From: Elusimicrobia bacterium GWA2_62_23
Lineage (GTDB): Bacteria > Elusimicrobiota > Elusimicrobia > Elusimicrobiales > UBA9959
Reading direction: 5' to 3'
Length of the DNA stretch: 64,000 nucleotides
Assembly (NCBI GenBank): GCA_001799635.1
Contig: MGTV01000010.1
Location: 1 to 64,000 of the forward strand
Under the pieces are notes generated by a model. The model did not search any database, was not told the DNA's origin, and was given only the letters and a program-made list of their open reading frames with translations. Shown one piece after another: positions 41,598 to 63,437 of the stretch (the first letter of the stretch is position 1; every line of letters starts with the position of its first letter). The translations under genes were made by a program, and so were the position numbers.

Positions 41598-42518
41598 TCA
41601 GAACCCTTCGGGCCGGATGGAGCCGGGATCTTTGGAGGAAGTTTTTAATTCGGCAGAGCCGTGGATCCTCAGGTAGTCGGCCCGCGCGCCGCAGCAGGCG
41701 GGCTTGAGCCGGCAGCGCCGGCACGCGGCGCAGGCGGCGGGCCGTTTCACGCCGCCTTCGAAAACCTTGTCCCCGCGGCGCCAGCGCTGGAACTCGAAGG
41801 AGAACCCCTCGAATTTTTCCAGCTGGCACAACGGCAGGTTCTGGATCACGGCCTTCACGCCGGCCAGCTTCAGCTTCGCCAGGGCGATCTTCACGAACGG
41901 GGCCGACTCGCGGTAGCGCGGCACCAGCGCGGGGTCGTCGTTGACGCGCCCGGCGTTGCGTACGAAGGTGAAATTGACGAAGGCCGCGCCCGGGAAATTC
42001 TTGACGGTCCACTCCGCGAAGCCGGGCAGGGCTTTGTAATTGAAGGCGGAGATTATATGGAAGAGGCGCAGCCGGCCCTCGGCCCCGCATTTTTTCAGGT
42101 TGTTCAGGCCCGCCAGGGCCAGCGGGAATTTGACGCTGCGGGTGGCCCGCGCGTAGATCTCCGGCAGGTGGGAGGGGAAATTGACGGTAAAGTAATCCAT
42201 CTCGGCCGCCGCTTTTCTGCAGAGGGCCGGATCGGCGAGGGCCACGGCGTTGGTGGAAAGCATGAAATGGCGCACGCCGGCCTTGCGCAGGGCTGCCACT
42301 ATCTCAAGGAACCTTGGATTGGCGGCCGGATCTCCGCCGCCTTCCAGGCTTACCGCCCTTATGCCGCGCTTCTTTATCTCCGCCAGGGCGCGGGCGAGGG
42401 GGGGCATTTTACCGTCGGGCGGGTTCTGGCAGTAGGCGCAGTAGATGTTGCAGGTGGCGGCAGCCTGCACGCAGAGCTGCTCGCTTATCCAGTTCTCCCC
42501 GGTTTTCCCTGTTTTCAC
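41598..42518 (-). CDS. Radical SAM protein with twitch-like C-terminus (Hxs-region family)
   Basis: The 306-residue protein has the cluster motif CNIYCAYC (Cys23, 27, 30), then EGGGDPAANP in place of the usual GGEP. The C-terminus has one upstream Cys in LPLCQLEKF and CRRCRLKPACCG, a C-x2-C-x5-C set that could bind an auxiliary cluster. It is most similar within the window to the enzyme at 52265-53110, sharing HxISAxNYxxLP in the middle. It points away from the barnase/barstar pair and lies 1.2 kb from the Hxs operon. Peptide modification is likely but unproven. Confidence 0.85.
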   Translation of the reverse strand: MKTGKTGENWISEQLCVQAAATCNIYCAYCQNPPDGKMPPLARALAEIKKRGIRAVSLEGGGDPAANPRFLEIVAALRKAGVRHFMLSTNAVALADPALCRKAAAEMDYFTVNFPSHLPEIYARATRSVKFPLALAGLNNLKKCGAEGRLRLFHIISAFNYKALPGFAEWTVKNFPGAAFVNFTFVRNAGRVNDDPALVPRYRESAPFVKIALAKLKLAGVKAVIQNLPLCQLEKFEGFSFEFQRWRRGDKVFEGGVKRPAACAACRRCRLKPACCGARADYLRIHGSAELKTSSKDPGSIRPEGF

Positions 42519-42660
42519 GGTCTAATTCTATCATTTCCGGCAAGGCCGCCCTGGGCCTTAAGGCCTAGTCGGACCTGGGTCCTATGGCTCTCGTCAAATC
42601 CGGCTTATTATCTAAAATATAAAGGACGTGCTATCTCAAACCAGGAATAAGGACTTCAGC

Positions 42661-43218
42661 ATGCTTAAGAATAAGAACCTGTGGTTGAAAGTCGCGGCCC
42701 TCCTCGTTTTCTCTTTCCAGTCATCCGCCGTTTTCGCCGAGCCGGCCCTGAAAACCGCGGCGGAGATCCCCGCCCTGACGGAGTTGCTGTCGGCGGCCCC
42801 GGCCAACCTGGTGGAGCTGCCCGCCGCCCCCGAAGTAAAAGCGGCGCCTCGGCCCGGTCCCGCTCCCCAGCCCGGCAAGGAATTCACCCCCGTGGTTTAC
42901 GACCAGCAGCGCATCGAGGCGATGATGAAATTGCTCGGTGATATTTACGGCAACAAGCCCCTGCCCTACGACCAGGACGGCACCACCTTCAAGAACAAGG
43001 AAGGCAAACTTCCCGCCCAGCCCGCCGGCTATTATAAAGAGTACACGCTGCTCACCGGCAACGCGCCGCACACGGTAAAGATCGGAGATAAAACGTACAA
43101 GGTGGCCCCGGATCTCAGCGCCCGCGGCTCCGAGCGCGTCATCATAGGCGGCGGTGAGAACGTTTACTACACGCCCGACCATTACGCTAATTTCATACTG
43201 CTGAAAGTGGTGCGCTAG
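42661..43218 (+). CDS. Secreted barnase/RNase Sa-type ribonuclease
   Basis: The 185-residue protein has a signal peptide (about 1-26, ending VFA before EPA), an alanine/proline-rich linker (to about 72) and a microbial ribonuclease domain (about 78-185). Alignment with RNase Sa by eye gives the catalytic set Glu127 in YKEYT, Arg155/Arg159 in RGSERVI and His174 in DHYANF. The enzyme cuts RNA after guanosine. AAGGAC precedes the ATG. The barstar gene begins four bases after the stop, so toxin and inhibitor are made together. Confidence 0.93.
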   Translation: MLKNKNLWLKVAALLVFSFQSSAVFAEPALKTAAEIPALTELLSAAPANLVELPAAPEVKAAPRPGPAPQPGKEFTPVVYDQQRIEAMMKLLGDIYGNKPLPYDQDGTTFKNKEGKLPAQPAGYYKEYTLLTGNAPHTVKIGDKTYKVAPDLSARGSERVIIGGGENVYYTPDHYANFILLKVVR

Positions 43219-43222
43219 GGAG

Positions 43223-43612
43223 ATGTCCGCCCCCGGGGAAAAGGTTTTCCTGGACTTCCGGGCCGGCGGTCTTACGGCGGAGGGAATGATCGAAATGTTC
43301 CCTCCGCCGGTCTATTTCCTGGCCCGGCTGGACGGGGCCGTCATCCCCGACAAGGCCGCGCTGATGCCGGCCATCGCCGCGGCTTTCCGCTTTCCCTCCT
43401 ATTTCGGCGGCAACTGGGACGCCCTGCTGGACTGCCTGCGCTCGCTGCCCGAGTTCAATCCCGCCGGCGGCTACGCCCTGGTCATCAGCGGCTCCGACGC
43501 TTTCCTGGCCGATTCCGCCAAAGACCGAGAGGATTTTCTGGACGTAGCCGGCGCCGCCGCCGAATTCCTGGCCGAAAAGCCGAAACTCCCCTTCAGAGTG
43601 ATCTTTCTTTAA
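43223..43612 (+). CDS. Barstar-family ribonuclease inhibitor
   Basis: The 129-residue cytosolic protein contains the barstar core SYFGGNWDALLDCL, with Asp66 and Asp70 matching the residues that plug the barnase active site, and a final strand FRVIFL. It carries no signal peptide, so it protects the cytosol from the RNase encoded just before it. AGGGAG overlaps the RNase stop codon and serves as the ribosome-binding site. A weak hairpin (CCGCGT/ACGCGG) follows the gene. Confidence 0.93.
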   Translation: MSAPGEKVFLDFRAGGLTAEGMIEMFPPPVYFLARLDGAVIPDKAALMPAIAAAFRFPSYFGGNWDALLDCLRSLPEFNPAGGYALVISGSDAFLADSAKDREDFLDVAGAAAEFLAEKPKLPFRVIFL

Positions 43613-43736
43613 AAACCCGCCCGCGTATTGAAAAACGCGGATTTATGTATTAGACTATGATGATAATACCGGGGTCTGCCCGGAACGTCTCCTTTTGCCG
43701 TTTTTAGCCCGCCGGGAAGCCGGACCAGGGGGTTTT

Positions 43737-44459
43737 ATGACGAACGAGAAAATAGTCGTTTTGCAGGTCAGGTTCACCAGGACCAGGGCGCTCATGGCGC
43801 TGGCCCTGTTCTTCCTCTGCTGGCACCCGAAGCCGCTGGGCTCGGAAACCCTGCAGTTGACCACCTACTACCCGGCCCCCTACGGCGGGTATGTGAGCAT
43901 CCTCACTACCGGCAACACCTACCTGGCCCGCGATTCCGGCACAGTGGGCATCGGCTTCCCGGCGTCTGTCACCCCGCGCCGCAAACTGGACGTTAACGGC
44001 GAGATAGTGGCGGTCAACAGGATGACGCTGGCGCAGAATACGGACTTAGTGAGTCCCACCTGGCATATCGATAATTCCGGGGGGCGTTTTCGCGTCTTTA
44101 ACCAGCCTAATATCAATGCCAGCGGCTCGGAGAGAGTGACCGTGCTGTCCAACGGCAACGTGGGCATCAATTCGGCGGCCCCGAGCGAGCGCCTTTCCGT
44201 GGCGGGAAATCTCGGAGTAACCGGGGATGTGCTTGTGAACGGTGGCTGGCTGCAGGGCCTGTGCACCGAGGTGGCTTTCGGCGGCGGCACCAGCTGGTGT
44301 CCCGGCGGCCGCCGCGTCATGGGCCAGTACGGCACAGGGCGCTGTTACGTCGGCAACCTGTTCCTTGGCGGCACCCTGGAGTCGGGCGGCCGCTGGGTGC
44401 CGCATTACGAGCAGGGTTGCACCGGCACCATGCTCTGCTGCTACATCAGGAACTACTAG
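43737..44459 (+). CDS. Exported surface protein with TTYYPAPYG motif and cysteine-rich C-terminus
   Basis: The 240-residue protein has an N-terminal hydrophobic segment (about 18-32) and then LTTYYPAPYGGY, a motif recurring in Elusimicrobiota-type surface proteins as I recall them. Repetitive tail-fibre-like units with VGIG and KLDVNGEI/ERLSVAGNLGV follow. The last 70 residues have six cysteines, including the pair CC near the end. GGGGG precedes the ATG at 43737; an in-frame ATG at 43695 has no such site. It ends 16 bases before the first hxsD gene, so it may be the first gene of the Hxs operon and a possible substrate. Confidence 0.75.
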   Translation: MTNEKIVVLQVRFTRTRALMALALFFLCWHPKPLGSETLQLTTYYPAPYGGYVSILTTGNTYLARDSGTVGIGFPASVTPRRKLDVNGEIVAVNRMTLAQNTDLVSPTWHIDNSGGRFRVFNQPNINASGSERVTVLSNGNVGINSAAPSERLSVAGNLGVTGDVLVNGGWLQGLCTEVAFGGGTSWCPGGRRVMGQYGTGRCYVGNLFLGGTLESGGRWVPHYEQGCTGTMLCCYIRNY

Positions 44460-44475
44460 TTTTATTGGAGGCACT

Positions 44476-44961
44476 TTGAAAAAAGAGTCGCGCAGCAAGA
44501 CGGAAGTTTCTGTCAGCCTGAAAAAATACTCCCTTGAAGCAGTACGCTACGCCGCGCACGCCGCAAGCAGCGCGGCGCGCGTTTTTATCAGGACCAGCGG
44601 CCGCGACGCGGCCGTGGTGGAGTTCGAACCCACGGGCAAGCTCCCCGGGGCGAAAATAGCCGCCGCCTTCAAGGCGGAGCTCGAGGACGAGGCGTTGCGG
44701 GCTTCCGTGTACGAGGCCAACCGCGAACTGCGCGACTTCATGATCCTCAAGGCCCTGTCGGCCTCCGAGGCGGCCCAGAAGCCCCGCCAGGACGATTCCG
44801 GCCTGACCCCCGAGCAGGAAAAAGAACTGGACGCCCTCATAGCCCAGGTGGAGAGCGAGATAAAACAGGAAGCCGCCGCCGGAGCGTCAGCCGACCCGCT
44901 CGGCATAACGAAGACATGGGAAGATAAATATGGCGCTAAAAAAAGCCGCAAAAAGAACTGA
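44476..44961 (+). CDS. hxsD: HxsD-like protein (His-Xaa-Ser system), copy 1
   Basis: The 161-residue protein has an N-terminal part with YSLEAVRYAAHAAS and the helix AELEDEALRASVYEANRELRD, which corresponds to the LLNDYxLRE signature of HxsD. A glutamine/glutamate-rich tail (about 105-161) makes it longer than the usual 90-110. HxsD is a small partner protein of the HxsB/HxsC radical SAM pair and may present the precursor. The start is TTG at 44476, six bases after GGAGG. It overlaps hxsB by 32 bases. Assignment is by motif and position. Confidence 0.75.
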   Translation: MKKESRSKTEVSVSLKKYSLEAVRYAAHAASSAARVFIRTSGRDAAVVEFEPTGKLPGAKIAAAFKAELEDEALRASVYEANRELRDFMILKALSASEAAQKPRQDDSGLTPEQEKELDALIAQVESEIKQEAAAGASADPLGITKTWEDKYGAKKSRKKN

Positions 44962-46381
44962 GCCCGCCGGCCCCCCGCAGCTGCTCTGGCGCCGGGACGG
45001 CGCCGAGTGCCTGGTCACCAACGATTTCGGGCATTACGCCTGGCTCAAGCGCAAGGACTTCGACCTGCTGCTGGCCGGCCGGCTCGGCGAGAAACATCCC
45101 GCCTACGCCGCCCTGGCCGACAAGGGCTTCATCCGCGACCGCCTGGATTTCGACGGGCTCGCCGCCAAGTGGCGCTCCAAGAACGCCTACCTGAACTCCG
45201 GCCCCGGCCTGCACATTTTGGTGCTGACGCTGCGCTGCAACCACAAGTGCCTCTACTGCCAGTCCTCGGCCGCCGGCGTCGGGTCCAAGGACACCGACAT
45301 GTCCGCGGCCACCGCGAAGAAGTGCGTGGATTTCGCCTTCCAGTCGCCGAACCCCGGCATCACCATAGAATTCCAGGGCGGCGAGCCGCTCTTGAACTGG
45401 GAGGCGCTGAAGGCCGCCGTGCTGCACGCGCGCGCGAAGGCTAAGAAGGCCGGCAAGGACCTGCGCCTGGCGCTGGTCTCCAATTTCAGCCTGATGACCG
45501 AGGAGAAGGCGCAGTTCCTGATGGAGAACGAGGTTTCCATCTGCACCTCGCTCGACGGCCCCGCGGACCTGCACAACCGCAACCGCGTCTTCTGCGGCGG
45601 CAATTCCCACGCGGCCACCGTCAAGTGGCTGAAATTCTTCCAGGCGCGCCACGCGCGCCAGGTGCCCGAATACCGCGTCTTCAAGCCCAGCGCGCTGCTG
45701 ACAGTGTCGCGCTACTCGCTGGGCCGCCACAAAGAGATCATCGACGAGTACGTGAAGGCCGGTCTCGAGGATATCTTCATCCGCCCGCTCGCGCCTATCG
45801 GCTACGCCAAAAACCTCTGGGGCCAGATCGGCTACGACGCCGCGGCCTTCGGCAAGTTCTACCTGGAAAGCCTCGACTACATCCTGAAGCTCAACCGCGC
45901 CGGCGTCACGCTCCGGGAAAAGATGGCTTCCATGATGCTGGACAAGATAGTCAACTCGCGCGACCCAGGCTACCTTGACGCGCGCTGCCCCTGCGGCGCC
46001 GCCATCGGCCAGGTCGCGTACAATTACAACGGCGACCTTTACACCTGCGACGAGGGGCGCATGGTTGGCTGGGAGGGAGACGACGCCTTCAAGATAGGCA
46101 ACGTCCGCCAGGATCCTTACCGCAAGGTGATGACCAGCGGCGCGGCCCGCGCCTGCGTGCTCTCCTCCAACCTGGAGTCGCAGCCTGACTGCGCGCGCTG
46201 CGCCTACAAGCCGTACTGCGGCGTGTGCCCCGTCTATAACTACGAAACGCAGGGCTCGCTGTGGGGCGACATGGCCGTTAACGACCGCTGCGGCCTCTTC
46301 AAGGGCACATTCGGGGCGCTGTTCGCCATGCTCAAGAAGCCGGCCAACGAGGCCATTTTGAAAAAATGGGTGGCAAAATGA
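44930..46381 (+). CDS. hxsB: Radical SAM/SPASM maturase HxsB, copy 1
   Basis: The 483-residue protein has an N-terminal recognition-type domain (about 15-85), the cluster motif CNHKCLYC (Cys103, 107, 110), FQGGEPLLNW and a full SPASM region. The SPASM region has CPCG, YTCDEGR, then CARCAYKPYCGVC (C-x2-C-x5-C-x2-C) and a last Cys in DRCG. This is the HxsB architecture of the His-Xaa-Ser system. A paralogue lies at 58372-59811 and shares long blocks, such as CTSLDGPADLHN and CDEGRM. The stop overlaps the second hxsD start (ATGA). Confidence 0.88.
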   Translation: MALKKAAKRTEPAGPPQLLWRRDGAECLVTNDFGHYAWLKRKDFDLLLAGRLGEKHPAYAALADKGFIRDRLDFDGLAAKWRSKNAYLNSGPGLHILVLTLRCNHKCLYCQSSAAGVGSKDTDMSAATAKKCVDFAFQSPNPGITIEFQGGEPLLNWEALKAAVLHARAKAKKAGKDLRLALVSNFSLMTEEKAQFLMENEVSICTSLDGPADLHNRNRVFCGGNSHAATVKWLKFFQARHARQVPEYRVFKPSALLTVSRYSLGRHKEIIDEYVKAGLEDIFIRPLAPIGYAKNLWGQIGYDAAAFGKFYLESLDYILKLNRAGVTLREKMASMMLDKIVNSRDPGYLDARCPCGAAIGQVAYNYNGDLYTCDEGRMVGWEGDDAFKIGNVRQDPYRKVMTSGAARACVLSSNLESQPDCARCAYKPYCGVCPVYNYETQGSLWGDMAVNDRCGLFKGTFGALFAMLKKPANEAILKKWVAK

Positions 46382-46677
46382 AAAAGATCCCGGTAACCTC
46401 CGTAACGGCCGACGCCGCCGTCTATTCCGCAGAGGCGCTGCGCCTGGCCGCCTTCGTCTTCTCCGACAAGGCCGAAGCCGTGATAAAGCCGGTCAAAGGC
46501 GGCTTCCAGGTCTCCTTCCGCAACGAAGCCCCCGGCTTCCACCCGGGAGATTACTTCAACGAAGCGCTCAACCAGCAGTGCCGTCTCGACCTGGCGAAGA
46601 AGAATTCCAAGGCCGCCGGCATGATAGCCACCAAGGCCCTGCTTTCGGCCGCCGGCGAGGCCGGCAAAAAAGCCTGA
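46378..46677 (+). CDS. hxsD: HxsD-like protein, copy 2
   Basis: The 99-residue protein has the HxsD layout at standard length: a first half with AVYSAEALRLAAFVF and a second half FHPGDYFNEALNQQCRLDLAKKN that matches the signature region. It is only distantly similar to copy 1. It is coupled to hxsB by a four-base overlap and precedes hxsC by 54 bases. Two HxsD-type partners in one operon suggest two precursor types or a heteromeric partner. Confidence 0.75.
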   Translation: MKKIPVTSVTADAAVYSAEALRLAAFVFSDKAEAVIKPVKGGFQVSFRNEAPGFHPGDYFNEALNQQCRLDLAKKNSKAAGMIATKALLSAAGEAGKKA

Positions 46678-46731: not shown

Positions 46732-47619
46732 ATGCCCGACATAGCTTTCTGGAACAAGTGCAACAACAAGTGCGTGATGTGCACCAACGAGGGCGGCTTC
46801 GCCCTTAACGACTCCGCGCATTACGCCCTGCGTCCCCAGATAGAGAAGCTCGAGCGCTGGTTGAAAGGCCAGGGCAAGGTTTACCTCAAGAACGACGATA
46901 AGCCGGATTTCGTGAGCCTGACCGGCGGCGAGCCCACCATTCATCCGGATTTTTTCCGCCTGCTCGCCTATTTCCGCCTGCGGCTGCCGGGCACCGGCAT
47001 CACGCTGCTGTCCAACGGCCGCACTTTCGCCGACAAAGAGTTCGCGCGCCGCTTCCTGAAAGTGGCCGCGCCGCCCTTCGCGGTGGCCGTGCCCGTGCAC
47101 GCCCCCGCCGCCGCTCTGCACGACAGGATCGCCGGGGTGAGGGGGGCCTTTCGCCAGACGCTGGCGGGGCTGGACAATCTTTTCTCCGGCGACGGCAAGG
47201 TGGAGCTGGAGATACGGCTGGTGCTGCACCGGCTCAACATTAAAAGCTTCTCCAGGCTTCTGGCCTTCCTTCTGGCACGCTACCCGGACCCCCGCCGCTA
47301 CCGCGTGACCGCCATCCACTACGAGATAGAGGGCATGTCGCTGGCCAACCACCGGCGGCTGGCGCTGCGGCTCAAAGAGTCAGCCGCCGCGCTCGGTGCC
47401 GCCCTGCCGCTGATAAAGCGGTTCAAGGATTTCCGGCTCTACCATTTTCCGCGCTGTCTGGTGCGGCCGGAACTGCGCCGGCTCTGCTGGGTTACCCTGC
47501 CGCCGGAGGACCGGGTCTATACGGCCAAGTGCAAGGGGTGCCGCGCCCGCCGCGGCTGCCTGGGGCTGATGGCGGAGTATCATAAGGCTTTCGGCGACGG
47601 GGAGCTACGCCGCCTATGA
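46732..47619 (+). CDS. hxsC: Radical SAM protein HxsC
   Basis: The 295-residue protein has CNNKCVMC (Cys10, 14, 17) at its very start, SLTGGEPTIHP, LLSNGRTFAD, the block VHAPAAALHDRIAGVRGAF and ELEIRLVLHRLN, all typical of HxsC. The C-terminus has Cys242, Cys252 and the set Cys267-x2-Cys270-x5-Cys276 for an auxiliary cluster. HxsC acts as the partner radical enzyme of HxsB on the His-Xaa-Ser precursor; the chemistry is not known to me. It overlaps the membrane protease gene by four bases. Confidence 0.85.
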   Translation: MPDIAFWNKCNNKCVMCTNEGGFALNDSAHYALRPQIEKLERWLKGQGKVYLKNDDKPDFVSLTGGEPTIHPDFFRLLAYFRLRLPGTGITLLSNGRTFADKEFARRFLKVAAPPFAVAVPVHAPAAALHDRIAGVRGAFRQTLAGLDNLFSGDGKVELEIRLVLHRLNIKSFSRLLAFLLARYPDPRRYRVTAIHYEIEGMSLANHRRLALRLKESAAALGAALPLIKRFKDFRLYHFPRCLVRPELRRLCWVTLPPEDRVYTAKCKGCRARRGCLGLMAEYHKAFGDGELRRL

Positions 47620-48773
47620 AGTACCTGCACCTGGTCTACCTGGCGGCTTTCTCCTGGTGGGGCGTGTCCGTGGTGGGCGTGGACATGGCCACCCGCAAGA
47701 TCCCAAACGCCAGGATAGTTTTCGGCTTCCGGCTGCTGCTGCTGGCCCTGGGCCTGCTGGCGGTGAACACCCTGCTGGGCCATTACGGCCACACCACCAG
47801 CTACCTCAACTGGAATTTCTACCCCATGTGGGCCGCGCATTTCTTCTGGTCGGCGCTGGCCGGGGTGATCCTGTGGTACACCGGGATCTGGCCGGCCGGC
47901 GACGCCAAGTTCTTCATGCTCTGCGCGGCCTGGCTGCCGGTCATCAACCCTTACGTCCGCAATTTCCCGCATTACCTGTTCGTGGGCCTGCTCGTTAACA
48001 CCTTCGTGGCGGCGGCGCTGGTGGCCCTGGGGTCTTTCCTGGCGTCGGGTTTCTACCAGGCCAGTCCCGCGGATTTCTTCGCCGAGCTCTGGAAGGACGT
48101 GAAGGCGCGCTTCGCCTCCCTGTCGGGGGAAGGCGCAAGGGGCGGCTGGCGCATCGCCGCCTACCTGGCCAACCTGACCTTCCTGTTCCTGCTGCAGCAG
48201 GTGCTGAACATGGAGACGCGTTATTTCCTCGGCCGCTTCCTGGGCCGCACCGACATCATCTATTTCTTCCTGTTCTTTCTCTGGGACAAGGTGGGCGGCG
48301 CTTTCTCCAGTAAAAAGTGGATGTACGCCAGCACGGCCTGCTACGCGCTGTACTTCTTCGCCGGTTATTTCTTCTTTTACGACCGGCTGGCCGCGATGCT
48401 GCTGGCGGCCTTCGTGAACGTCTTCAAGTTCAGCCTGCTGCTCTTCTTCGGCCGGTTCATGCTGGAGCACCTGATGGAGAAGAAGGACACCGTCTACGTG
48501 GGGCCGCGCGAACTGGAGCCGGGCATGATCCTGTCCGCCAAGGCCGCGCGCACGCTCAAGGATAACCCGCTCTTCGAGGGGGCCTTCGACGATCATTTCA
48601 AGGACGGCCTGAGCGCCGAACAGGTGCAGCTGCTGAAGGACTGGCTGGGCAAGCTCAACGTGCAGGACCCGAAGATAGAGACGGTGAAGGGGCGGCCTTT
48701 CGCCCTGTGGATCTTCGCCGGCGCGGCGCTGACCCTGCTGCTGGACCGCGGGCTGGTGACCTTCTTCAAATGA
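47616..48773 (+). CDS. A24-like prepilin peptidase with extra C-terminal part
   Basis: The 385-residue protein has about eight membrane segments. It carries the two aspartates of type IV prepilin peptidases: Asp23 in VDMATRKIPN, and Asp96 in WPAGDAKFF, where the usual GxGDxK reads AGDAK. The peptidase core ends near residue 150; the rest adds more helices and a charged soluble stretch (about 275-350), unlike classical enzymes. No N-methylation domain is visible. It is coupled by overlaps to hxsC and to the next radical SAM gene. It probably cleaves the pseudopilin encoded at 51382-52245. Confidence 0.75.
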   Translation: MKYLHLVYLAAFSWWGVSVVGVDMATRKIPNARIVFGFRLLLLALGLLAVNTLLGHYGHTTSYLNWNFYPMWAAHFFWSALAGVILWYTGIWPAGDAKFFMLCAAWLPVINPYVRNFPHYLFVGLLVNTFVAAALVALGSFLASGFYQASPADFFAELWKDVKARFASLSGEGARGGWRIAAYLANLTFLFLLQQVLNMETRYFLGRFLGRTDIIYFFLFFLWDKVGGAFSSKKWMYASTACYALYFFAGYFFFYDRLAAMLLAAFVNVFKFSLLLFFGRFMLEHLMEKKDTVYVGPRELEPGMILSAKAARTLKDNPLFEGAFDDHFKDGLSAEQVQLLKDWLGKLNVQDPKIETVKGRPFALWIFAGAALTLLLDRGLVTFFK

Positions 48774-49696
48774 CGACCGAAAAGAAAATGCTAAAGGTGG
48801 TGCTGTTCACGGGCTACGCCTGCAACAACAACTGCGCCTTCTGCATAGACGCGGACAAGCGGGCCATCCCCGAGAAGACCACCGCGGAGCTGCTCAAGGA
48901 AGTGGTGAAAGCCAGGAGCAAGGGCGCTTACGTCCTGGAGATCATAGGCGGGGAGGCCACCATCCGCCCCGACTTTAACCGCGTGGTGGGCGCGGCCAAG
49001 CGGCTGGGCATCCCGCAGGTGACCTGCGCCACCAACGGCCGGGTTTTCGCGGACCCGGCCGCGGCGAAGAAGATAGTGGCTTCCGGCATAGACGCCCTGA
49101 TCTTTTCCGTGCACGGCCCCGACGCCGCCACGCACGACGAGCTCACTTGCGCGCCAGGCAGCTTCGCCCAGCTGAAGAAGGGCCTGCGCAACCTGCGCGC
49201 CCTCGGCTTCGAACGGATAAGCGGCAACACCACGGTGGTAAAGCCGAACCTGGCCGCCCTGCCGCGCCTGGCGGAGTTCTACATAAAGAACCGCATTTCC
49301 AACGTGGAGTATATTTTCGTGGACCCCAACTACGGCGGGGCGCGCAACCATTTTAAAGAGCTGGTGCCGCGCATCTCCAAAGCCGCGCCGCAGATGCGCA
49401 AGGCCCTGAAGCTGGGCCGCGCCGCCGGTATGGACCAGTGGAAGGTGCGGTATGTGCCGCTCTGCCACTTTAAAGACTGCCTGGACCAGATCAGCGAGAC
49501 CAACGAGCGTGAACTGTTCCTGACCGAGCACTGGGCGCCTGATTTTCGCAACACCGACGCCATCGGTTCGCGCGCCGCGGTGGGCCGCCGCAAAACGGCG
49601 CGCTGCCGCGGCTGCCGGCTCTTTTCCGCCTGTGAGGGCCTTTGGGTGGAATACCTGAAGAATTACGGCGACGCCGAATTGAAGGCCGTGAAATGA
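48770..49696 (+). CDS. Radical SAM protein with twitch-like C-terminus (Hxs operon)
   Basis: The 308-residue protein has CNNNCAFC (Cys18, 22, 25), IGGEATIRPDF in place of GGEP, and CATNGRVFAD. Its C-terminus follows the local pattern: an upstream Cys in VPLCHFKDC and CRGCRLFSACEGLWVEY with C-x2-C-x5-C, then NYGDAEL. It resembles HxsC most in the order of motifs. The start overlaps the stop of the peptidase gene and the end overlaps the next radical SAM gene, so all are translated together. Substrate unknown. Confidence 0.86.
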   Translation: MTTEKKMLKVVLFTGYACNNNCAFCIDADKRAIPEKTTAELLKEVVKARSKGAYVLEIIGGEATIRPDFNRVVGAAKRLGIPQVTCATNGRVFADPAAAKKIVASGIDALIFSVHGPDAATHDELTCAPGSFAQLKKGLRNLRALGFERISGNTTVVKPNLAALPRLAEFYIKNRISNVEYIFVDPNYGGARNHFKELVPRISKAAPQMRKALKLGRAAGMDQWKVRYVPLCHFKDCLDQISETNERELFLTEHWAPDFRNTDAIGSRAAVGRRKTARCRGCRLFSACEGLWVEYLKNYGDAELKAVK

Positions 49697-50892
49697 AAAA
49701 AGAAAAAGACGGCACCGGCCGCTGTTACGAGCTGATCCTCAATTACAACTGCAACGCGCGCTGCAGGTTCTGCTCGCAGGGGGATTTCGACAAGGCCCTC
49801 AACGCGCCGTTCGACGCCATCGCCCGCAATATCTACGGGGCGTACAAGGACGGCTACCGCCGCCTGGGCCTGACCGGCGGCGAACCGCTCATCCGCCCGG
49901 ACATTCTCAAGGTCATAGCCCTGGGCAAGTCCGTGGGTTTCCGCTTTATCCGCGTGCAGACCAACGGCATAAAACTGGCCGATCCCGCTTTTTGCCGCGC
50001 GCTGGTGAAGGCGGGGCTCACCTTCTGCAAGTTCTCTTTCACCACCGACCGCGCCGCCGACCACGACCGGCTGGTGGGCGTGCCCGGCGCGCTGAAAAAC
50101 GCGCTGGCCGGGCTCGCGAACCTGCGCAGGCTCAAGGTCCGGCTCGGCACCAACATCCTGGTTAACAGGAGCAACTACGCCCGCCTGCCGGAGATCATCA
50201 GGTTCTACCTGGAGCGCGGCATCACCAATTTCGTGATCATTTACCCGGTGTATATAGGGGCCATGGCCGACAACTGCAGGAAACTGGGCGTGCGCCTGTC
50301 AGACTGCGAGCCGTATTTCGACGCGGCCGTGAAAATCATGGAAGAGGCGGGCCTGCCGGGCGAGATACTGTTCCTGAACACGCCGCCCTGCTTTCTCAAA
50401 GGTCGGGAAAAGCTGGCCATAGGCCTGGACCTGTTCAACACGGTGGTCACCGACCCGGCGGGCGGCAGCACCGACCTGGACGCCAACGCCGCGGCCTCTA
50501 AAGTGAAAGGCCCGCCGTGCCGCCGCTGCTCCCTGAATAAAAAATGCCGCGGCGCGGACGAGCACTATATCAGGCGTTTCGGCTGGCGCGGCTTCGTCCC
50601 GATGAAAAAAGCCGGCGGGGAGAAAGAGACCGGCGCCTCCGGCCGCGTCTATCTGTCGGATAACGAGAAGTGCCTGGTAGAGATACTACGCCGCAAGCCT
50701 AACGCCTCCACCAAAGAGGTGCTGGCGCTTTCCAGGAACATAGTGCTCTGCCGGGACTGCTCGGACGGCAACGTGGTCATGGCCTCCGCGGCCAGCCTGG
50801 GCGGAAAGGGCCTCGTTAAAAGTTCTTTCGAGCGCGGCGTTTACCGCTGGGTGCTCGCGAAACCTTACGCGGAGATAAAAAAACTGCTTTGA
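49693..50892 (+). CDS. Radical SAM protein with C-terminal helix-rich extension (Hxs operon)
   Basis: The 399-residue protein has CNARCRFC (Cys20, 24, 27), GGEPLIRPD and the auxiliary set TPPCFL plus CRRCSLNKKCRG (C-x2-C-x5-C). An extra stretch of about 95 residues at the end contains LSDNEKCLVEILRRKPNAST and a CRDC pair. It may be a winged-helix or recognition module absent from the sister enzymes. Overlap with the preceding gene is four bases; a 34-base gap follows. Confidence 0.85.
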   Translation: MKKEKDGTGRCYELILNYNCNARCRFCSQGDFDKALNAPFDAIARNIYGAYKDGYRRLGLTGGEPLIRPDILKVIALGKSVGFRFIRVQTNGIKLADPAFCRALVKAGLTFCKFSFTTDRAADHDRLVGVPGALKNALAGLANLRRLKVRLGTNILVNRSNYARLPEIIRFYLERGITNFVIIYPVYIGAMADNCRKLGVRLSDCEPYFDAAVKIMEEAGLPGEILFLNTPPCFLKGREKLAIGLDLFNTVVTDPAGGSTDLDANAAASKVKGPPCRRCSLNKKCRGADEHYIRRFGWRGFVPMKKAGGEKETGASGRVYLSDNEKCLVEILRRKPNASTKEVLALSRNIVLCRDCSDGNVVMASAASLGGKGLVKSSFERGVYRWVLAKPYAEIKKLL

Positions 50893-50926: not shown

Positions 50927-51385
50927 ATGGAAAACAAAGAAAGCGAACCGTTGGATGAGCTCCGGGCTTTCCTGGAGAAGCGCCAGAAAGAGGCGGAGCA
51001 GAATCCACCCCCCGCGCCGCCGCCGACTCCCGAGGCGGTCTCGGGCCGGCGCCGTCTTCTGGTGCTGGGCGTCCAGCTGGCCGTAATATTTTCGGCCGCC
51101 GTCTATCTCTTCCTGAATTTCCCTTACCTGAAGAACGACCTCTATCCTCCCAAGCAGCTGCGCGTAGGGTCATACAACACCGACCGCGCCGGCGAGGCGT
51201 GTATCCGAAACCTCTGGCGGATAGCGGCCGGGGAGCCGGGCGCGGCCAAGGCCGTTTGCCCCTCTTCCGGCCAGCCGTACAGCGTCTCCGGCAGGACCGC
51301 CAGCTGTCCCTCGCCGGAAAGACACGGCCTTTCGGAACTTTATTACCAGCCGCGCAAAGGCGTAGTGGCGAAGGGGGCCAAATGA
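50927..51385 (+). CDS. Single-pass membrane protein of unknown function, pseudopilin partner
   Basis: The 152-residue protein has a charged, proline-rich cytosolic start (about 1-42), one membrane helix (about 45-66) and an outer domain with three cysteines in EACIRN, AVCPSSG and ASCPSPE. It has no prepilin motif. It overlaps the pseudopilin gene by four bases and so is a likely assembly partner or minor subunit. AAGGGGACC precedes the ATG. I do not recognise a family. Confidence 0.75.
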   Translation: MENKESEPLDELRAFLEKRQKEAEQNPPPAPPPTPEAVSGRRRLLVLGVQLAVIFSAAVYLFLNFPYLKNDLYPPKQLRVGSYNTDRAGEACIRNLWRIAAGEPGAAKAVCPSSGQPYSVSGRTASCPSPERHGLSELYYQPRKGVVAKGAK

Positions 51386-58371: not shown

Positions 58372-59811
58372 ATGATATCCACACCCGGGCTGCCGGGCGG
58401 TCTTATAATGAAAAAACAGGACAATTCCCCGGCTTATTTCAACTGGCGCCGCCTTAAGAAGGGCGTGCTGGTGACAGGCTACATGGGCGGCTGGGCCGTG
58501 CTGAACCCAAAAGAGTTCTCCTTGTTCGCGGCCGGCCGGCTCAAGAAGGGGCCGGCGCTGGCGAAACTGGAGAAGGCCGGCCTGCTGCGCGCGCGGCTAG
58601 ATTTCGATTCCATTTTCACGGATTGGCGGGATTCCAACGAATACCTGGGGAAGGGCCCCGGCCTGCACATCCTGGTGCTGACGCAGGTCTGCAACCACAA
58701 TTGCGTTTACTGCCAGGCCGGAGAGGTCACCGGCAGTTCCATGACCCTCGCTACGGCGAAAAAAGCGGTAGATTTCGCTTTTACGGCGCCTGTGCCCGGC
58801 CTGACCATGGAATTCCAGGGCGGCGAGCCGCTGGCCAACTGGCCGGTGCTGAAAGAGGCGGCGCTCTACGCCCGCGCGAAGGCGCGAAAGACCGGCAAGG
58901 AACTGGCCTTGGCGTTGGTGACCAACCTGAGCATGATGGACGAGGCTAAGGCGGAGTTCATCGTTGAGAACGACATCTCCCTCTGCACCTCGCTCGACGG
59001 CCCCGCGGACCTGCATAACGCCAACCGGCCTTATTCCGGCGGGGATTCCCACGCCGCCGCGGTGAAGTGGATAAAATATTTCCAGAAGCGGCGCGGCACC
59101 GAGCCTCCCGGCGGGCCCAGCGCCCTGCTTACCGTTACCCGGAGGTCGCTCGGGCGGGCCGCGGAGATAGTGGACGAGTACGCGCGCCTGAAACTGCCGT
59201 ACGTGTTCCTGCGGCCGCTTTCCCCTATGGGGCAGGCCGTGGAGCGCTGGGGCGAGATAGGTTATGGGGCGGACGAGTTTGTGGAATTTTACCGGGCCGG
59301 CCTGGACCGGGTGCTGGAGCTGAACCTTAAAGGCGTGCCGATAAGGGAAAAAACGGCGTTCCTCATTGTGAAGAAGATAGCCGGCTCGCAGGACAACCGC
59401 TACGTGGACCTGCGCTGTCCCTGCGGGGCGGGCCTCGGCCAGCTGGCCTACGACTGGGACGGCGGCGTTTACACCTGCGACGAGGGGCGCATGCTGGCCC
59501 GCGGCGGGGACAAGTCTTTCAGGCTGGGCAGCGTTCTCAGGGACAATTACCGGGCGGTCATCGCCGCCGATCCGGTCAAGGCCTGCGCAATCTCCTCCAG
59601 CCTCGACCTGCAGCCGGTCTGCGCGCGCTGCGCCTACAGGCCTTTCTGCGGCGTCTGTCCGGCCTATAACCAGTCCGCCCAGGGCGGTTTCTGGGGCTCC
59701 ATGCCTTCCAATGCCAGGTGCCGGGCGCTGCTGGGGATCTTTGACGCCGTCTTCGAAAAACTGCTGGATAAACGCACCGGGCCCGCGCTTGAAAAGTGGC
59801 TTGAATATTGA
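58372..59811 (+). CDS. hxsB: Radical SAM/SPASM maturase HxsB, copy 2
   Basis: The 479-residue protein is a paralogue of the enzyme at 44930-46381 along its whole length. It has CNHNCVYC (Cys107, 111, 114), EFQGGEPLANW, CTSLDGPADLHN, CDEGRM and the SPASM set CARCAYRPFCGVC. The start at 58372 follows AAGGAGAGG at a 12-base distance; an ATG at 58408 is the alternative and would give 467 residues. No hxsD or hxsC lies in this sub-locus, so it may share those of locus A. The HxsA precursor gene is 1.2 kb downstream. Confidence 0.88.
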   Translation: MISTPGLPGGLIMKKQDNSPAYFNWRRLKKGVLVTGYMGGWAVLNPKEFSLFAAGRLKKGPALAKLEKAGLLRARLDFDSIFTDWRDSNEYLGKGPGLHILVLTQVCNHNCVYCQAGEVTGSSMTLATAKKAVDFAFTAPVPGLTMEFQGGEPLANWPVLKEAALYARAKARKTGKELALALVTNLSMMDEAKAEFIVENDISLCTSLDGPADLHNANRPYSGGDSHAAAVKWIKYFQKRRGTEPPGGPSALLTVTRRSLGRAAEIVDEYARLKLPYVFLRPLSPMGQAVERWGEIGYGADEFVEFYRAGLDRVLELNLKGVPIREKTAFLIVKKIAGSQDNRYVDLRCPCGAGLGQLAYDWDGGVYTCDEGRMLARGGDKSFRLGSVLRDNYRAVIAADPVKACAISSSLDLQPVCARCAYRPFCGVCPAYNQSAQGGFWGSMPSNARCRALLGIFDAVFEKLLDKRTGPALEKWLEY

Positions 59812-59836
59812 CGTTTTATCTGTTATAACATATAGA
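59808..59836 (+). promoter_or_regulatory. Predicted promoter of the HxsA-containing unit
   Basis: TTGACG (59808-59813, overlapping the hxsB stop codon) and TATAGA (59831-59836) are 17 bases apart. It would drive the genes from 59890 through 63437. Confidence 0.55.
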
Positions 59837-59889
59837 TATATTGGAGCCGCCTTCTATTTCGGGCGGCGGGGGGCGTTCACGCATCATTT

Positions 59890-60990
59890 ATGAAGAAATG
59901 GACCATACTAACCATCGCGGTGCTGGCGGCCATACTGCTCGTAATGCAGTACCTCATTGAGAAGAAGAAAGTGGCCATGAGCGAGAGCGGCCAGCAGGCC
60001 GGCTCGGCCGAACAGCAGCTTGGCGTGGCCCTTCCCGAAAGCGCCACCACCTATACCGGCGCGGCCGTGGATAACTACGTCCCGGATTACGTGGGCGGGG
60101 CCCAGTACGGGACCATCACCATGCCGACCATCCAGTCCACGTACAAGGGCGCCTGCGAGGCCTCTTCCCTGCAGGATATGCTGGCCAGCCATGATAAGTA
60201 CTGGGGGTTCCTGGCCCGGGACGCGGCCTTCAACCAGAACGAGACCCAGAAAATGTACGATTACCTGGCCGACTATACCGCCTGCCAGGCGGCCGCCCGC
60301 ACCGACGCCAGCCTCTGCGATTCGCTGCCCAGCGACGTGCAGATAGACGGCAAGAAGGTGGACGTCAGGATAACCCCCAACTACCGCTGCCGCACCAAGA
60401 CGGTTTCGCTGTTCTTCGAGGCGTACAGGGCGGGGAATATCTCCGGCGACTCTTATTGCCGGCTGGGCGTCGGCACCTTCGACAAGCAGGACCTGGAGCG
60501 CTTCTCGGTACCCGAGTTCTGCTCGGTCCTGCCCAAGGGCCAGGAGGCCATAGAGGGGTTCCTGTTGAAAGCCTTCGCGGTGGATTCGCCCGAGGCCAAG
60601 GCCCGGGTGCGCGGGGCGTTCCCCGTGAAGGAAGGCGATTGCGCCAAGGACAAAGAGTGCCTCACTAAGTACGAGCTTTACAACGCGGTCAAGAAGGCGC
60701 GGCCCGACGCCTGTCCCAACGACTATGTGCAGCAGTGCCGGGCGCTGGCCGAAAGGTCCGCCGTGCCCTGCGAAAAGACCCTGCAGGAGATGTCGAAGTT
60801 CTATTGCGCCGCCGTGGCGCGCGTGAAAAAGGCCTCCGGCGGCTATATCGGCCTGTCGAAGGAAGAGGCCAAGGTGGAGCTGGACAAGCTGAAGGCCCAG
60901 CGGGCCGAAGCCGACGAAATAAAGAAGCAGCAGCAGAAGATCATGGAAGAGGTCAACAAGCAGGTGCGTGAAACGCTGAAGAAAAAGTAG
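59890..60990 (+). CDS. Cysteine-rich membrane-anchored protein of unknown function, HxsA neighbour
   Basis: The 366-residue protein has an N-terminal membrane anchor (about 5-22) and an outer domain with about a dozen cysteines spread between residues 95 and 310, for example GACEASS, YTACQAA, NYRCRTK, DSYCRLG and EFCSVLP. It ends in a charged helical tail (about 320-366). I know no family for it. It lies 19 bases before the HxsA gene on the same transcript, so it may be an extracytoplasmic partner, carrier or protease-like processing factor. Confidence 0.75.
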   Translation: MKKWTILTIAVLAAILLVMQYLIEKKKVAMSESGQQAGSAEQQLGVALPESATTYTGAAVDNYVPDYVGGAQYGTITMPTIQSTYKGACEASSLQDMLASHDKYWGFLARDAAFNQNETQKMYDYLADYTACQAAARTDASLCDSLPSDVQIDGKKVDVRITPNYRCRTKTVSLFFEAYRAGNISGDSYCRLGVGTFDKQDLERFSVPEFCSVLPKGQEAIEGFLLKAFAVDSPEAKARVRGAFPVKEGDCAKDKECLTKYELYNAVKKARPDACPNDYVQQCRALAERSAVPCEKTLQEMSKFYCAAVARVKKASGGYIGLSKEEAKVELDKLKAQRAEADEIKKQQQKIMEEVNKQVRETLKKK

Positions 60991-61009
60991 CCTGAACGGG
61001 GATACATTT

Positions 61010-61330
61010 ATGAAAAAGAAACCGTCCAAAATTAAAAAGAACGTGAAGCTGTTCTTCTCGAGCGAAGAGGGGAAGATGCTGGATTCCGACATCGTCAAGA
61101 CCGGGCTCGCGCTGGGCATACTCGGCATGACCATGGTGGACCAGGCTGGAGCGCAGAACATCCACTCGAACTACTTCAGCTCCTCGTACCACGTGAGCCA
61201 CACCAGCCACGGTTCGCACGGGTCCCACGGTTCGCACGGGTCCCACGCGTCGCACGGCTCTCATGGGTCGCACGGTTCGCACGGGTCGCATGGTTCTCAC
61301 GGTTCGCACGGCTCGCACGGGTCGTACTGA
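61010..61330 (+). CDS. hxsA: His-Xaa-Ser repeat precursor peptide, HxsA-like
   Basis: The 106-residue precursor has a leader (about 1-48) with a basic start, KLFFSSEEGKMLDSDIVKTG and a hydrophobic stretch ending in QAGAQ. The core follows after a short spacer and holds 15 H-x-S triplets: HVS, HTS, four HGS, HAS and eight HGS, then a final Tyr. Triplets run from 61190 to 61324. Codons for Gly and Ser vary between triplets, so the repeat is held at protein level. The HxsB/C enzymes probably modify the His-x-Ser core. CGGGGATACATTT precedes the ATG. Confidence 0.9.
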   Translation: MKKKPSKIKKNVKLFFSSEEGKMLDSDIVKTGLALGILGMTMVDQAGAQNIHSNYFSSSYHVSHTSHGSHGSHGSHGSHASHGSHGSHGSHGSHGSHGSHGSHGSY

Positions 61331-61339
61331 CGAGCGCGC

Positions 61340-62479
61340 ATGCCCGGGGCTGCCTCGGTGAGAGGCCTGTTCTATCATTATAGCCCCGGTGGAGACGTCG
61401 GCCACGGCGTGCACCTGTTCCGCCTGGCCGCCGCCCTCAAAAAAAAGTTCGGTCCTTCCCTTTCCCTCACACTCCTGCGCGACGGCGCGTCCTACCCCGG
61501 CGATAAGAGCTGGGAGTACGGCCGCGTCCTGAAACTGCCCGGCGGCAACGAACGCGCCGCCCTGCTGAAAAAAGAATTCTCCCGCGGCTATGACTTCGCG
61601 GTGACGTCATTTTTTCCTCTGGGGCGCACCGGCTGCGCCGCCGAACTTCTGCCCGCCCTGGCCGCCGCCCGCGCGGCCGGTACAAAGATCTACGCCTCCT
61701 CCGCCCTGCCTTATCTCTCCTGGCGCGGCGAAGACCTGCCGTGCTTGTTCGCCGCCGCCGCTCTTTACGACCTGATACTGGTGCATTGCCCGCCCGGCTT
61801 CGATCTGAAATACATGGCGAAGGCCGTAGCCGTGGAGCGGCGCATAAGCCCGGCCGCCTTCCTGGGCGCGTTCAGGCGGCTCGGCCCCAAGGTCCGGTTC
61901 ACCGGCTATGTGCTCCCGGAGCGCCTGCCTGCCGCCGGACAAAAAGGGACCTATATCCTGGTCCACCGCGGCGGCGGTTCCACGTCGCCCGAAATAATTT
62001 CCTGCGCCATAAAGGCGAAGCCGCTGCTCAAAAGCCGCCTGCCGATGGTGATAGTGGCCGGCCCCGCCAGTTCTCCCGCGGAGATGGCGAAGTGGCGGGC
62101 GATGCTGCGCGGCGCCCGCGGCGTTAAGCTCATTAAAGAGACCAAAGATTTTCCCGCCCTCCTGGCCGGCTGCCGGGTGGCGGTCGGCACGGCCGGCGGT
62201 ACGGTCTATGAGGCGCTGAAACTGCGCCGCCGCCTGGTGCTGGTGCCTTACGCCGGCTCGCCCGGCGCCGAACACTCCGACCAGCTGGCGCGGGCGGCCC
62301 TGCTGCGCGACCTGGCCGGCGCCAGGGCGCTGGACTACGCCGGCCTGACGCCTGAAGTTTTCTCCGCCGCGGTGGATGCCGCGCTGGCCGGCCCGGCGCC
62401 GGCCTTCAGGGCGGGGCCCGGGGTTTTCGACGGAGCAAGAACGGCCGCGGCGCTCATAAGGGAAGGCCTGCATGTTTAA
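61340..62479 (+). CDS. GT-B fold glycosyltransferase-like protein
   Basis: The 379-residue protein has an N-terminal acceptor-type domain with SPGGDVGHGVHLFRLA (about 15-30) and a C-terminal nucleotide-sugar-type domain. In the latter, VGTAGGTVYEALKLRRRLVLVPY (about 284-306) and EHSDQLARAA match the GT28/MurG-type pattern. It starts nine bases after the HxsA stop and overlaps the radical SAM gene by eight bases. Glycosylation of the peptide or of a surface sugar is a reasonable guess. Confidence 0.8.
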   Translation: MPGAASVRGLFYHYSPGGDVGHGVHLFRLAAALKKKFGPSLSLTLLRDGASYPGDKSWEYGRVLKLPGGNERAALLKKEFSRGYDFAVTSFFPLGRTGCAAELLPALAAARAAGTKIYASSALPYLSWRGEDLPCLFAAAALYDLILVHCPPGFDLKYMAKAVAVERRISPAAFLGAFRRLGPKVRFTGYVLPERLPAAGQKGTYILVHRGGGSTSPEIISCAIKAKPLLKSRLPMVIVAGPASSPAEMAKWRAMLRGARGVKLIKETKDFPALLAGCRVAVGTAGGTVYEALKLRRRLVLVPYAGSPGAEHSDQLARAALLRDLAGARALDYAGLTPEVFSAAVDAALAGPAPAFRAGPGVFDGARTAAALIREGLHV

Positions 62480-63437
62480 AGAAGTTATGCTGGAGCTGAC
62501 CAGGCGCTGCAACCTGCGCTGCTCCTTCTGCTACCTGCTGAAGCGCGGCCTGCTGAATAAGGGCGGGCCCGAACTGGATACGGCCGCCGCGCTGAAGCTG
62601 GTGGGGCGGTTTCCGGCCGGCACCCGCTTTTACCTCTCCGGCGGCGAGCCGCTGCTGCGGCAGGACATTTTCAGGATCATCGCCAGCATAAAAGAGCGCC
62701 GCTGCGGCTGGGGGCTGAACACCAATGGCACGCTTCTCGACGCCGACGGTTGGCGCCGGCTCGCAGCCCTCAAACCGGATTACGTCATTTTCTCCCTGCA
62801 CGGAGCCGCGCCCCTGCACGACAGGCAGACCGGCGTGCCGGGTTCCTGCCGCAAACTCCTGAGCAATATGAAGGCTTTCGCCGCGGCCGCCGGACCCGGC
62901 ACCGAGGTGATGGTCAACTGCGTGGTGAACAGGGAGAACGCCGGGGCGCTCTCGGAAGTTTACCAGCTGGCCTCCGCCAACGGCGCCTCGCGCGTGGTCT
63001 TCGAACACCTGCAATTCCTGCGGCCGGCCGAAACCGCTTTGCTGCCGCCGGAACTGAAAAAAGGCGGCGTCATAACCCCGGAACTAGCCGGTTACAAAGC
63101 CGACGGCCGTCTGATCCTGCGCGAGTTCGACAAGATACGGCGCCTGGGCGGGCCGGCGCATTTCGACGTGCGTCCGCTGCTGTCGCGCGAGGGGCTGGAC
63201 CTTTACTATAACGGCGAGGTCTCCCCTGAAGGCGGCTGCTGCCGGGTTTATGACACGCTGAACGTGGAGCCCGACGGTCGCGCGCGTCTCTGCGTGCTCT
63301 ACGGGCTGAAGGCCGGGAACGCGTTGAAGACCGGACTGGGCGCCATGGCGGCGTTTAAGAAAAAAAAGATAGGCGTGCGCCTGCCTTCCGGCTGCGCCAG
63401 GTGCTGCCACCGGCTGACCCTGTTCAGATATTTTTAA
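62472..63437 (+). CDS. Radical SAM/SPASM-like protein of the HxsA unit
   Basis: The 321-residue protein has CNLRCSFC (Cys13, 17, 20), YLSGGEPLLRQD and GLNTNGTLLD, all standard. The C-terminus carries GGCCRVYDTLNVEPDGRARLC and CARCC, a SPASM-like cysteine set. This differs from the twitch-like ends of the locus A enzymes. It is the last gene of the HxsA transcript and converges with the deacetylase-like gene, overlapping it by 14 bases. Confidence 0.86.
   Translation: MFKEVMLELTRRCNLRCSFCYLLKRGLLNKGGPELDTAAALKLVGRFPAGTRFYLSGGEPLLRQDIFRIIASIKERRCGWGLNTNGTLLDADGWRRLAALKPDYVIFSLHGAAPLHDRQTGVPGSCRKLLSNMKAFAAAAGPGTEVMVNCVVNRENAGALSEVYQLASANGASRVVFEHLQFLRPAETALLPPELKKGGVITPELAGYKADGRLILREFDKIRRLGGPAHFDVRPLLSREGLDLYYNGEVSPEGGCCRVYDTLNVEPDGRARLCVLYGLKAGNALKTGLGAMAAFKKKKIGVRLPSGCARCCHRLTLFRYF

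Follow-up and report, generated by a model that had tools for sequence, protein, structure and literature searches.

His-Xaa-Ser (Hxs) systems are represented by profile models for HxsD (TIGR03976), HxsC (TIGR03977), HxsB (TIGR03978) and HxsA (TIGR03979), with further models for the HxsA4 precursor (NF038313) and for HxsC4 (NF038332). In one paper (PMC9062424), HxsB and HxsC are named putative maturases, with Haft and Basu cited for them; no report of Hxs chemistry was found by title or visible text in the open-licence literature (PMC9062424, PMC8446631), and no open-licence paper on Elusimicrobiota with radical S-adenosylmethionine (SAM) enzymes, ribosomally synthesized and post-translationally modified peptides or pilins (PMC8692599 included) describes such a system by its title or abstract. 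Here, we report an Hxs region in Elusimicrobia bacterium GWA2_62_23 (contig MGTV01000010.1, positions 1 to 64,000; the window is this whole stretch of 64,000 nucleotides). The region, at 41598..63437, is read with a probability of about 60% as an enlarged HxsA4-type His-Xaa-Ser maturation system, in which a single pathway would rewrite and export HxsA4.

With known Hxs systems the region shares an HxsB and an HxsA4 over curated cut-offs, an HxsD-like gene beside hxsB and HxsC-like enzymes whose best model is HxsC or HxsC4. It differs in its additions, namely two HxsB, at least five HxsC-like enzymes, a SufS-like enzyme, an A24 prepilin-peptidase-like protein, a Cys-rich protein (u366) and a protein with a TYYP motif and a Cys-Cys tail (TYYP-CC), the whole being spread over 22 kb. 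Five simple loci from Myxococcota, Deltaproteobacteria and Oligoflexales (L164, L171, L172, L179 and L183) contain hxsB and a single HxsC-like gene together with hxsD1 and a second HxsD-like gene (product of about 70-80 residues); they share the hxsD1-hxsD2-hxsB core and a DPLGIxxPWEEKYG-like HxsD1 tail with the window, but have just one HxsC-like enzyme by hxsB and no gene labelled as TYYP, A24 or SufS-like in the stretch examined (L166, L173, L174 and L176 deviate from this arrangement). An enlarged Hxs system had been proposed in the initial annotation, and the comparison bears this out, as the region is larger than the hxsD-hxsD-hxsB-hxsC of the five simple loci and is conserved across relatives. 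The doubled hxsD is neither a sign of enlargement nor a novelty, because a pair of HxsD-like proteins next to hxsB is nothing unusual in other phyla.

Curated cut-offs were 370 bits for HxsB, 55 for HxsA4, 267.9 for HxsC, 50 for HxsD and 500 for HxsC4. Conservation was followed in 247 genomes of the phylum (36 from the window's own family, f1), with 11 mapped genomes in its own genus, and gene order was compared in 46 regions from 36 relatives. From a wider scan, the best 78 HxsB loci were used, 59 of them Elusimicrobiota-side (including records titled just "bacterium"; many end at contig edges) and 19 with names of other phyla. Relatives' genes were called with a codon-usage caller that missed genes (e.g., the TYYP gene of L155, recovered by pattern) and misplaced starts, so gene absences in these maps are no proof. 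TYYP genome counts were obtained with a DNA pattern for the motif, using the reversed pattern as control, and genome overlaps between HxsB, the rS2 model and HxsA4 were tallied by hand from match listings. HxsC-like enzymes were placed in a maximum likelihood tree of 140 rows (quick mode, Shimodaira-Hasegawa-like approximate likelihood ratio test [SH-aLRT] support).

Profile searches of the window proteins recovered every gene claimed in the initial annotation at the coordinates given there. The upstream half (locus A) carries, on the plus strand, HxsD-like protein 1 (44476..44961; TTG start after AGGAGG, chosen from the DNA; TIGR03976, 31.1 bits), the SPASM radical SAM enzyme HxsB (B1, 44930..46381; TIGR03978, 477.8 bits, over cut-off), HxsD-like protein 2 (46366..46677; TIGR03976, 27.9 bits), an HxsC-like radical SAM enzyme of the hxsC1 group (46732..47619; TIGR03977, 152 bits; a conserved tree group), the A24-like membrane protein (47616..48773; PF01478, 20.5 bits, cut-off 26.5), the HxsC/HxsC4-like enzyme rS2 (48770..49696; HxsC, 86.1 bits; HxsC4 NF038332, 128.1 bits), the HxsC-like enzymes rS3 (49693..50892; TIGR03977, 81.0 bits; HxsC4, 83.4 bits) and rS4 (52265..53110; TIGR03977, 82.2 bits; tree group support, 99) and a SufS-like class-V aminotransferase with desulfurase residues (53107..54357; PF00266, 233.8 bits; TIGR01979, 253.1 bits, cut-off 475.1). 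Divergent from this operon, on the minus strand, lies the HxsC-related radical SAM enzyme rS1 (41598..42518; TIGR03977, 50.6 bits; CNIYCAYC motif), which groups with rS4 in the tree. The downstream half (locus B) carries on the plus strand a second, B1-related HxsB (58372..59811, open frame from 58189; TIGR03978, 434.3 bits, over cut-off), u366, the precursor and rS5 (62472..63437), a radical SAM enzyme nearer NirJ (TIGR04051, 86.5 bits) than HxsC (TIGR03977, 38.5 bits). The description of locus B as hxsB plus an HxS precursor was thereby confirmed, both genes being over curated cut-offs (434.3 and 63.9 bits). Elsewhere the profile searches agreed with the initial annotation in part: both HxsB calls hold, and the HxsD-like and HxsC-like genes fall below their cut-offs, with HxsD as the best model for the former and HxsC or HxsC4 for the latter; the further radical SAM genes taken as Hxs enzymes fit HxsC below cut-off, and the one at 62472-63437 leaves that family for NirJ. 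In the genome as a whole, 0 of 24 TIGR03977 matches passed the HxsC cut-off (best, 152 of 267.9 bits), and none of the scanned proteins scored above 148 of 500 bits with the HxsC4 model (rS8, 148; rS2, 128).

The precursor HxsA4 (61010..61330, plus strand; NF038313, 63.9 bits, over cut-off) has a FFSSEEGKMLDSDIVK leader, a hydrophobic stretch with AxA, an (HGS)n core and a C-terminal GSY; TIGR03979 (HxsA) was unlisted for it at E ≤ 0.1. The collected HxS strings number 46, or 41 if only the last 60 residues are compared; SEE[GA] is present in 44 of the 46, SEQG in one, and one comes from a late-start call. The FLxSEEGK leader is conserved and recurs in other phyla, and a small-x-Ala (AxA) site stands before the core in 46/46 strings, as found with a loose regular expression. 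Strings have 5-29 HGS units (median, 12), and X is Gly in 578 of 755 HxS units. Their C-termini are GGWC (19), HGSY (9), HGQW (6), NPRC (5), GSGT (2), GSHG (2), HFSF (1), HGSW (1) and CPRC (1). A disulfide link via the HxsA4 C-terminus was considered and weakened by these ends, since Cys is terminal in 25 of 46 strings and the window's copy ends in GSY. An A24 cleavage site in the leader, an idea taken from SEE[GA], was rejected; L178 has this leader too, and its 8.4-kb stretch contains no gene labelled A24.

HxsB over cut-off was found in 55 of the 247 genomes, which fall in families f1 (35/36), f7, f8 and f22, with none in the small-genome family f2. The rS2 model, which also picks up rS8 relatives (about 180-220 bits), matched 58 genomes at E ≤ 1e-40, and HxsA4 matched 61 at E ≤ 0.001 (51 over cut-off). 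HxsB and the rS2 model occurred together in 53 genomes and neither in 187 (Fisher, 1.8e-45, relatedness ignored), the remainder being HxsB without the rS2 model (G070, G126) and the reverse (G041, G069, G071, G084, G222). HxsA4 was present in 54/55 HxsB genomes (not G201) and in 7 genomes without HxsB. The sole genome of the family without HxsB over cut-off (G231, own genus) is also without HxsA4, the rS2 model and the TYYP pattern, all at once. Outside these counts, the HxsB of L107, a metagenome-assembled genome titled Elusimicrobia, is 84% identical to a window HxsB.

Two gene orders recur in the 46 regions, with not every gene everywhere: barnase-barstar-TYYP-hxsD1-HxsB-hxsD2-u366-HxsA4 and hxsC1-A24-rS2-rS3-rS4-sufS-ygeY, the hxsC1-to-sufS part of which is kept in several own-family genera. 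Both orders form one contiguous run in G086, G229 and G108, with a further HxsB and rS8 between them, and f7 genomes (G199, G189, G150) have rS4-sufS-rS3-rS2-hxsC, then hxsD, hxsB and HxsA4, with no A24. The split over 22 kb, as opposed to a compact gene group, therefore stands for the window's lineage, where ygeY, htrA and ygeW part the two halves, and does not extend to G086, G229 and G108 with their single cluster. Gene-order comparison, which the initial annotation had named as a check, showed the enlarged system to be conserved and both loci to occur together in relatives. HxsA4 is a single match in the window's own genome, and among own-genus genomes it sits in the locus-A neighbourhood in 7/11 (G106, G144, G204, G208, G212, G224, G244) and in locus B in 4/11 (G000, G057, G110, G240). 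No other observation speaks as strongly for the view that both loci would serve one precursor.

The 2.98-Mb genome has 66 Radical_SAM matches, and because 8 lie inside the 22-kb span against about 0.5 expected if even, the clustering is not chance. Radical SAM genes go on over the next ~40 kb past the window, and contig C10 holds 25/66 matches at 41.6-102.9 kb (two of the 25 share one reading frame). Among the downstream genes, rS7 and rS8 fit HxsC4/HxsC best and rS6 fits PqqE best. The list of the initial annotation is incomplete, as radical SAM genes go on beyond the window and two conserved secreted genes inside it (43737-44459 and 59890-60990) had gone unnoticed. Among the best 78 HxsB loci, those longer than 18 kb have a median of 6 radical SAM genes on the Elusimicrobiota side (32 loci; range, 1-13) versus 3 in others (11 loci; range, 2-7).

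Judged from the tree, the HxsC-like enzymes are several old, separately conserved groups, most of which hold together across families. The groups rS2, rS4, rS5, rS6 and rS7 each occupy one side of a branch with support of at least 95 (rS1, 75); rS3 and rS8 need two changes, hxsC1 three and rS3x four, and the extra changes of rS3, rS8 and hxsC1 come mainly from rS7, relatives in other phyla or hxsC2 nested inside. Eight rows taken as HxsC of simple loci are scattered (five changes), and the longest branches are among them, which leaves the position of ordinary HxsC unsure. Relatives of rS2 number 14 at 47-77% identity to the window copy, and relatives of rS2 and hxsC1 also occur in Omnitrophota (L155) and Patescibacteria (L167, L182). 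Five Patescibacteria-titled loci (L136, L150, L163, L167, L182) belong to genomes of 0.5-1.0 Mb, which makes plain mis-binning from Elusimicrobiota less likely. In the HxsB tree, the second HxsB of the window lies near B1, apart from a B2 group found beside hxsC1.

In sequence matches to solved structures, HxsB was closest to 5wgg (5e-34), which we take to be the SCIFF maturase CteB, followed by 4k37 (1.2e-26). Its relation to SPASM peptide maturases and the anaerobic sulfatase maturase is one of superfamily only, and the precursor differs. For rS2 (7vob, 2e-15; 6c8v, 2.5e-11; 6efn, 6.2e-10), the match with cytosylglucuronate decarboxylase (BlsE), PqqE and SkfB is limited to the radical SAM core. 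The AlphaFold2 model of HxsD-like 1 (predicted local distance difference test [pLDDT], 87.8) is strand-helix-strand-strand-helix-helix; a PqqD-like recognition element with a winged-helix fold was considered for HxsD, and of the Foldseek matches in the PDB none reached E ≤ 0.001, PqqD being absent from the best 50 of 1029.

The TYYP-CC protein (43737..44459, plus strand; pattern match) has a signal-like N-terminus, SETLQLTTYYPAPYGGY and a C-terminal MLCC tail, with no Pfam and no NCBIfam match at E ≤ 0.01; it contains TYYPAPYG and is the only full pattern match in its genome, which has two partial ones. The pattern occurred in 62/247 genomes (reversed control, 0) and in 53/55 HxsB genomes, the two others being G070 and G122 (HxsB at contig end in the latter); its co-occurrence with HxsB over the 247 genomes is strong (Fisher, 7.4e-42). 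CC lies within the last 28 residues of 52/53 distinct TYYP proteins versus 11/987 other genes. Among the best 78 HxsB loci, 10 were too near a contig end for an upstream test and 13 were without a labelled hxsD-hxsB pair; TYYP lay ≤1.4 kb upstream of hxsD in 28/39 testable Elusimicrobiota-side loci and 1/16 others. In Omnitrophota, the phylum of L155, HxsB reached E ≤ 1e-60 in 35/384 genomes (26 over cut-off) and the TYYP pattern was present in 189/384 (reversed control, 2; G366 and G440), comprising 28/35 HxsB genomes versus 161/349 others (Fisher, 1.4e-4). In the best 20 Omnitrophota HxsB loci (≤1.5-kb flank), TYYP was upstream of HxsB in 8, of which 6 had it in a CC-tail frame, against fewer than 1 expected by chance (an estimate from few motifs per ~1.8-Mb genome). 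Because of this excess the TYYP-HxsB link is real, though TYYP is a wider family. Two stronger ideas were dropped: TYYP as an exclusive Hxs marker, given the Omnitrophota totals, and the CC tail as an Hxs mark in all phyla, since 6/16 testable other-phyla loci have a reading frame with CC among its last 28 residues upstream of hxsD and only L155 also has TYYP (the tails of L136 and L138 are similar; L158, L164 and L174 look like chance). TYYP strings were not met in the open-licence literature.

The second secreted partner, u366 (59890..60990, plus strand), was recognised from its conserved Cys and its model as an N-terminal anchor-like helix followed by a Cys-rich, all-helical protein. It has no NCBIfam or Pfam match at E ≤ 0.01; across 28 sequences, 4 cysteines are invariant and 6 nearly so, and its AlphaFold2 model (pLDDT, 85.1) has no PDB fold match at E ≤ 0.001.

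In the proposed single pathway, the small HxsD proteins would bind HxsA4 in the cytoplasm as carriers, and the two HxsB, together with a number of different HxsC-like radical SAM enzymes, would modify it stepwise, in a putative order and with putative chemistry. The desulfurase-like enzyme may supply the iron-sulfur clusters of the radical SAM enzymes; the product would be exported through the AxA site along the general route and may end at the surface or outside, alongside the TYYP-CC and u366 proteins. The conserved enzyme set and the two secreted proteins suggest a surface or exported product. Several observations weigh against this pathway. The HxsC-like and HxsD-like genes fall short of NCBIfam cut-offs, the co-occurrence counts depend partly on shared ancestry, and the AxA site comes from a loose regular expression rather than a signal-peptide predictor. 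Of the 247 genomes, 9 have the TYYP pattern but no HxsB over cut-off (including G164, with 13 copies, and G084, with HxsB in two fragments); the pattern is also present in the 161 Omnitrophota genomes without HxsB, and 11 of the 39 testable Elusimicrobiota-side loci are without it ≤1.4 kb upstream of hxsD, although 6 of these (L118, L147, L153, L159, L168, L180) carry it elsewhere in the locus.

A possible alternative, to which we give clearly less weight, is that the neighbourhood is home to two or more separate pathways, with an ordinary core of HxsD, HxsB, hxsC1 and HxsA4 standing next to a second radical SAM pathway (rS1-rS8 and the SufS-like enzyme) that acts on another substrate, e.g., u366 or TYYP. 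The deep distinctness of the HxsC-like groups fits this, as do the number of enzymes faced by a single HxsA4, the particular groups missing next to HxsB in some relatives and the presence of three secreted candidate substrates. A second pathway is harder to reconcile with a gene order from hxsC1 to sufS that is kept across own-family genera and reappears, rearranged and without A24, beside hxsD-hxsB-HxsA4 in the three f7 genomes, or with the nearly co-extensive distribution of HxsB, HxsA4 and the rS2 model over the 247 genomes. It is improbable that most of the radical SAM genes here are lineage noise and that HxsA4, modified lightly or not at all, is a His-rich peptide that binds metal at the surface: a core of His-Gly-Ser repeats in which X is so often Gly would suit metal binding, but the enzymes retain CxxxCxxC (rS4 in its full reading frame) and separate groups over families, which is unexpected for idle copies.

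The initial annotation had also pointed to modified surface peptides or pilins, together with a prepilin peptidase, a pseudopilin, a SufS-like enzyme and a glycosyltransferase. All four genes are present, the A24 gene scoring below its cut-off and the glycosyltransferase gene at the border. In the A24-like protein, D23 and A94-G95-D96 are invariant in 24/24 aligned sequences (window included), D23 and D96 presumably being the two catalytic aspartates of prepilin peptidase; in the SufS-like protein, K224 and C374, which we assume to be the desulfurase residues, occur in 14/14 (window included). Because these key residues are invariant, both proteins look active. The pseudopilin has a 3-keto-disaccharide-hydrolase-like domain (51409..52245; N-methylation motif, 24.3 bits, cut-off 21.2) and adjoins the small membrane protein tm152 (50927..51385). 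Modified pilins or pseudopilins with a dedicated prepilin peptidase would account for the pseudopilin and for a conserved A24 gene with both candidate aspartates intact. The A24-like gene is itself conserved, unlike the pseudopilin, and neither pseudopilin nor tm152 has a blastp hit at E ≤ 0.1 in the 46 regions of 36 relatives (pseudopilin, none at E ≤ 1 either), where a scan for prepilin-like motifs also gave no candidate. As these two genes are not conserved, the pilin reading was dropped; the SEEG leader of L178, with no A24 labelled nearby, and another, stronger A24 gene in the same genome (C8:558-902) also speak against it, and we regard it as the least probable of the readings weighed here.

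More speculative, and in our estimate unlikely, is a reading in which an undescribed surface assembly would be made by Elusimicrobiota, by part of the Omnitrophota and by a few lineages besides. Here the HGS-repeat peptide, once rewritten by the HxsB and HxsC-like radical enzymes, would be exported and then attached to, or linked with, a fibre protein bearing the TYYP motif, the linkage being made by the conserved Cys-Cys tail of that protein and by the Cys-rich u366. The radical enzymes may also act on the TYYP motif or on the Cys-Cys tail. These lineages offer a far richer version of Hxs, in which a single precursor stands with many enzymes and two linked families of secreted proteins. The function of HxsB and HxsC can thus be asked about with definite substrates, leader motifs and partners. 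A functional TYYP-CC link would, in addition, be a first lead for a widespread secreted motif.

Among the remaining genes of the region, a glycosyltransferase-28-like protein (61340..62479, plus strand; PF04101, 22.4 bits, cut-off 22, borderline) occurs in part of the relatives alone, after HxsA4 in L121 and L132-L135. A barnase-like ribonuclease with a signal-peptide-like N-terminus (42661..43218, plus strand; PF00545, 50.7 bits) and a barstar-like inhibitor (43223..43612, plus strand; PF01337, 78.4 bits) are of doubtful membership; such a pair adjoins Hxs genes or the TYYP gene in many own-family regions. Between the Hxs halves lie a YgeY-type hydrolase (54434-55624) and a YgeW knotted carbamoyltransferase (57005-58195), probably a separate metabolic pair, which remain Hxs neighbours in several relatives. 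The stretch downstream of the window also has two polysaccharide-deacetylase-like genes, a DegT/DnrJ-type aminotransferase-radical SAM fusion (L007:6324-8351, minus strand) and a run of B12-binding radical SAM genes (L007:12024-19345 and L008:1367-2839; C10, 74-85 kb). Three genomes of one genus (G211, G215 and G122; L071/L072, L073 and L078) have shikimate-pathway-looking genes, judged by eye, inside the Hxs cluster. A pair of families (about 280 and 230 amino acids) was found in 12 relatives' genomes each (e.g., L073:18162-19687), the first resembling, by eye, a U32-type peptidase.

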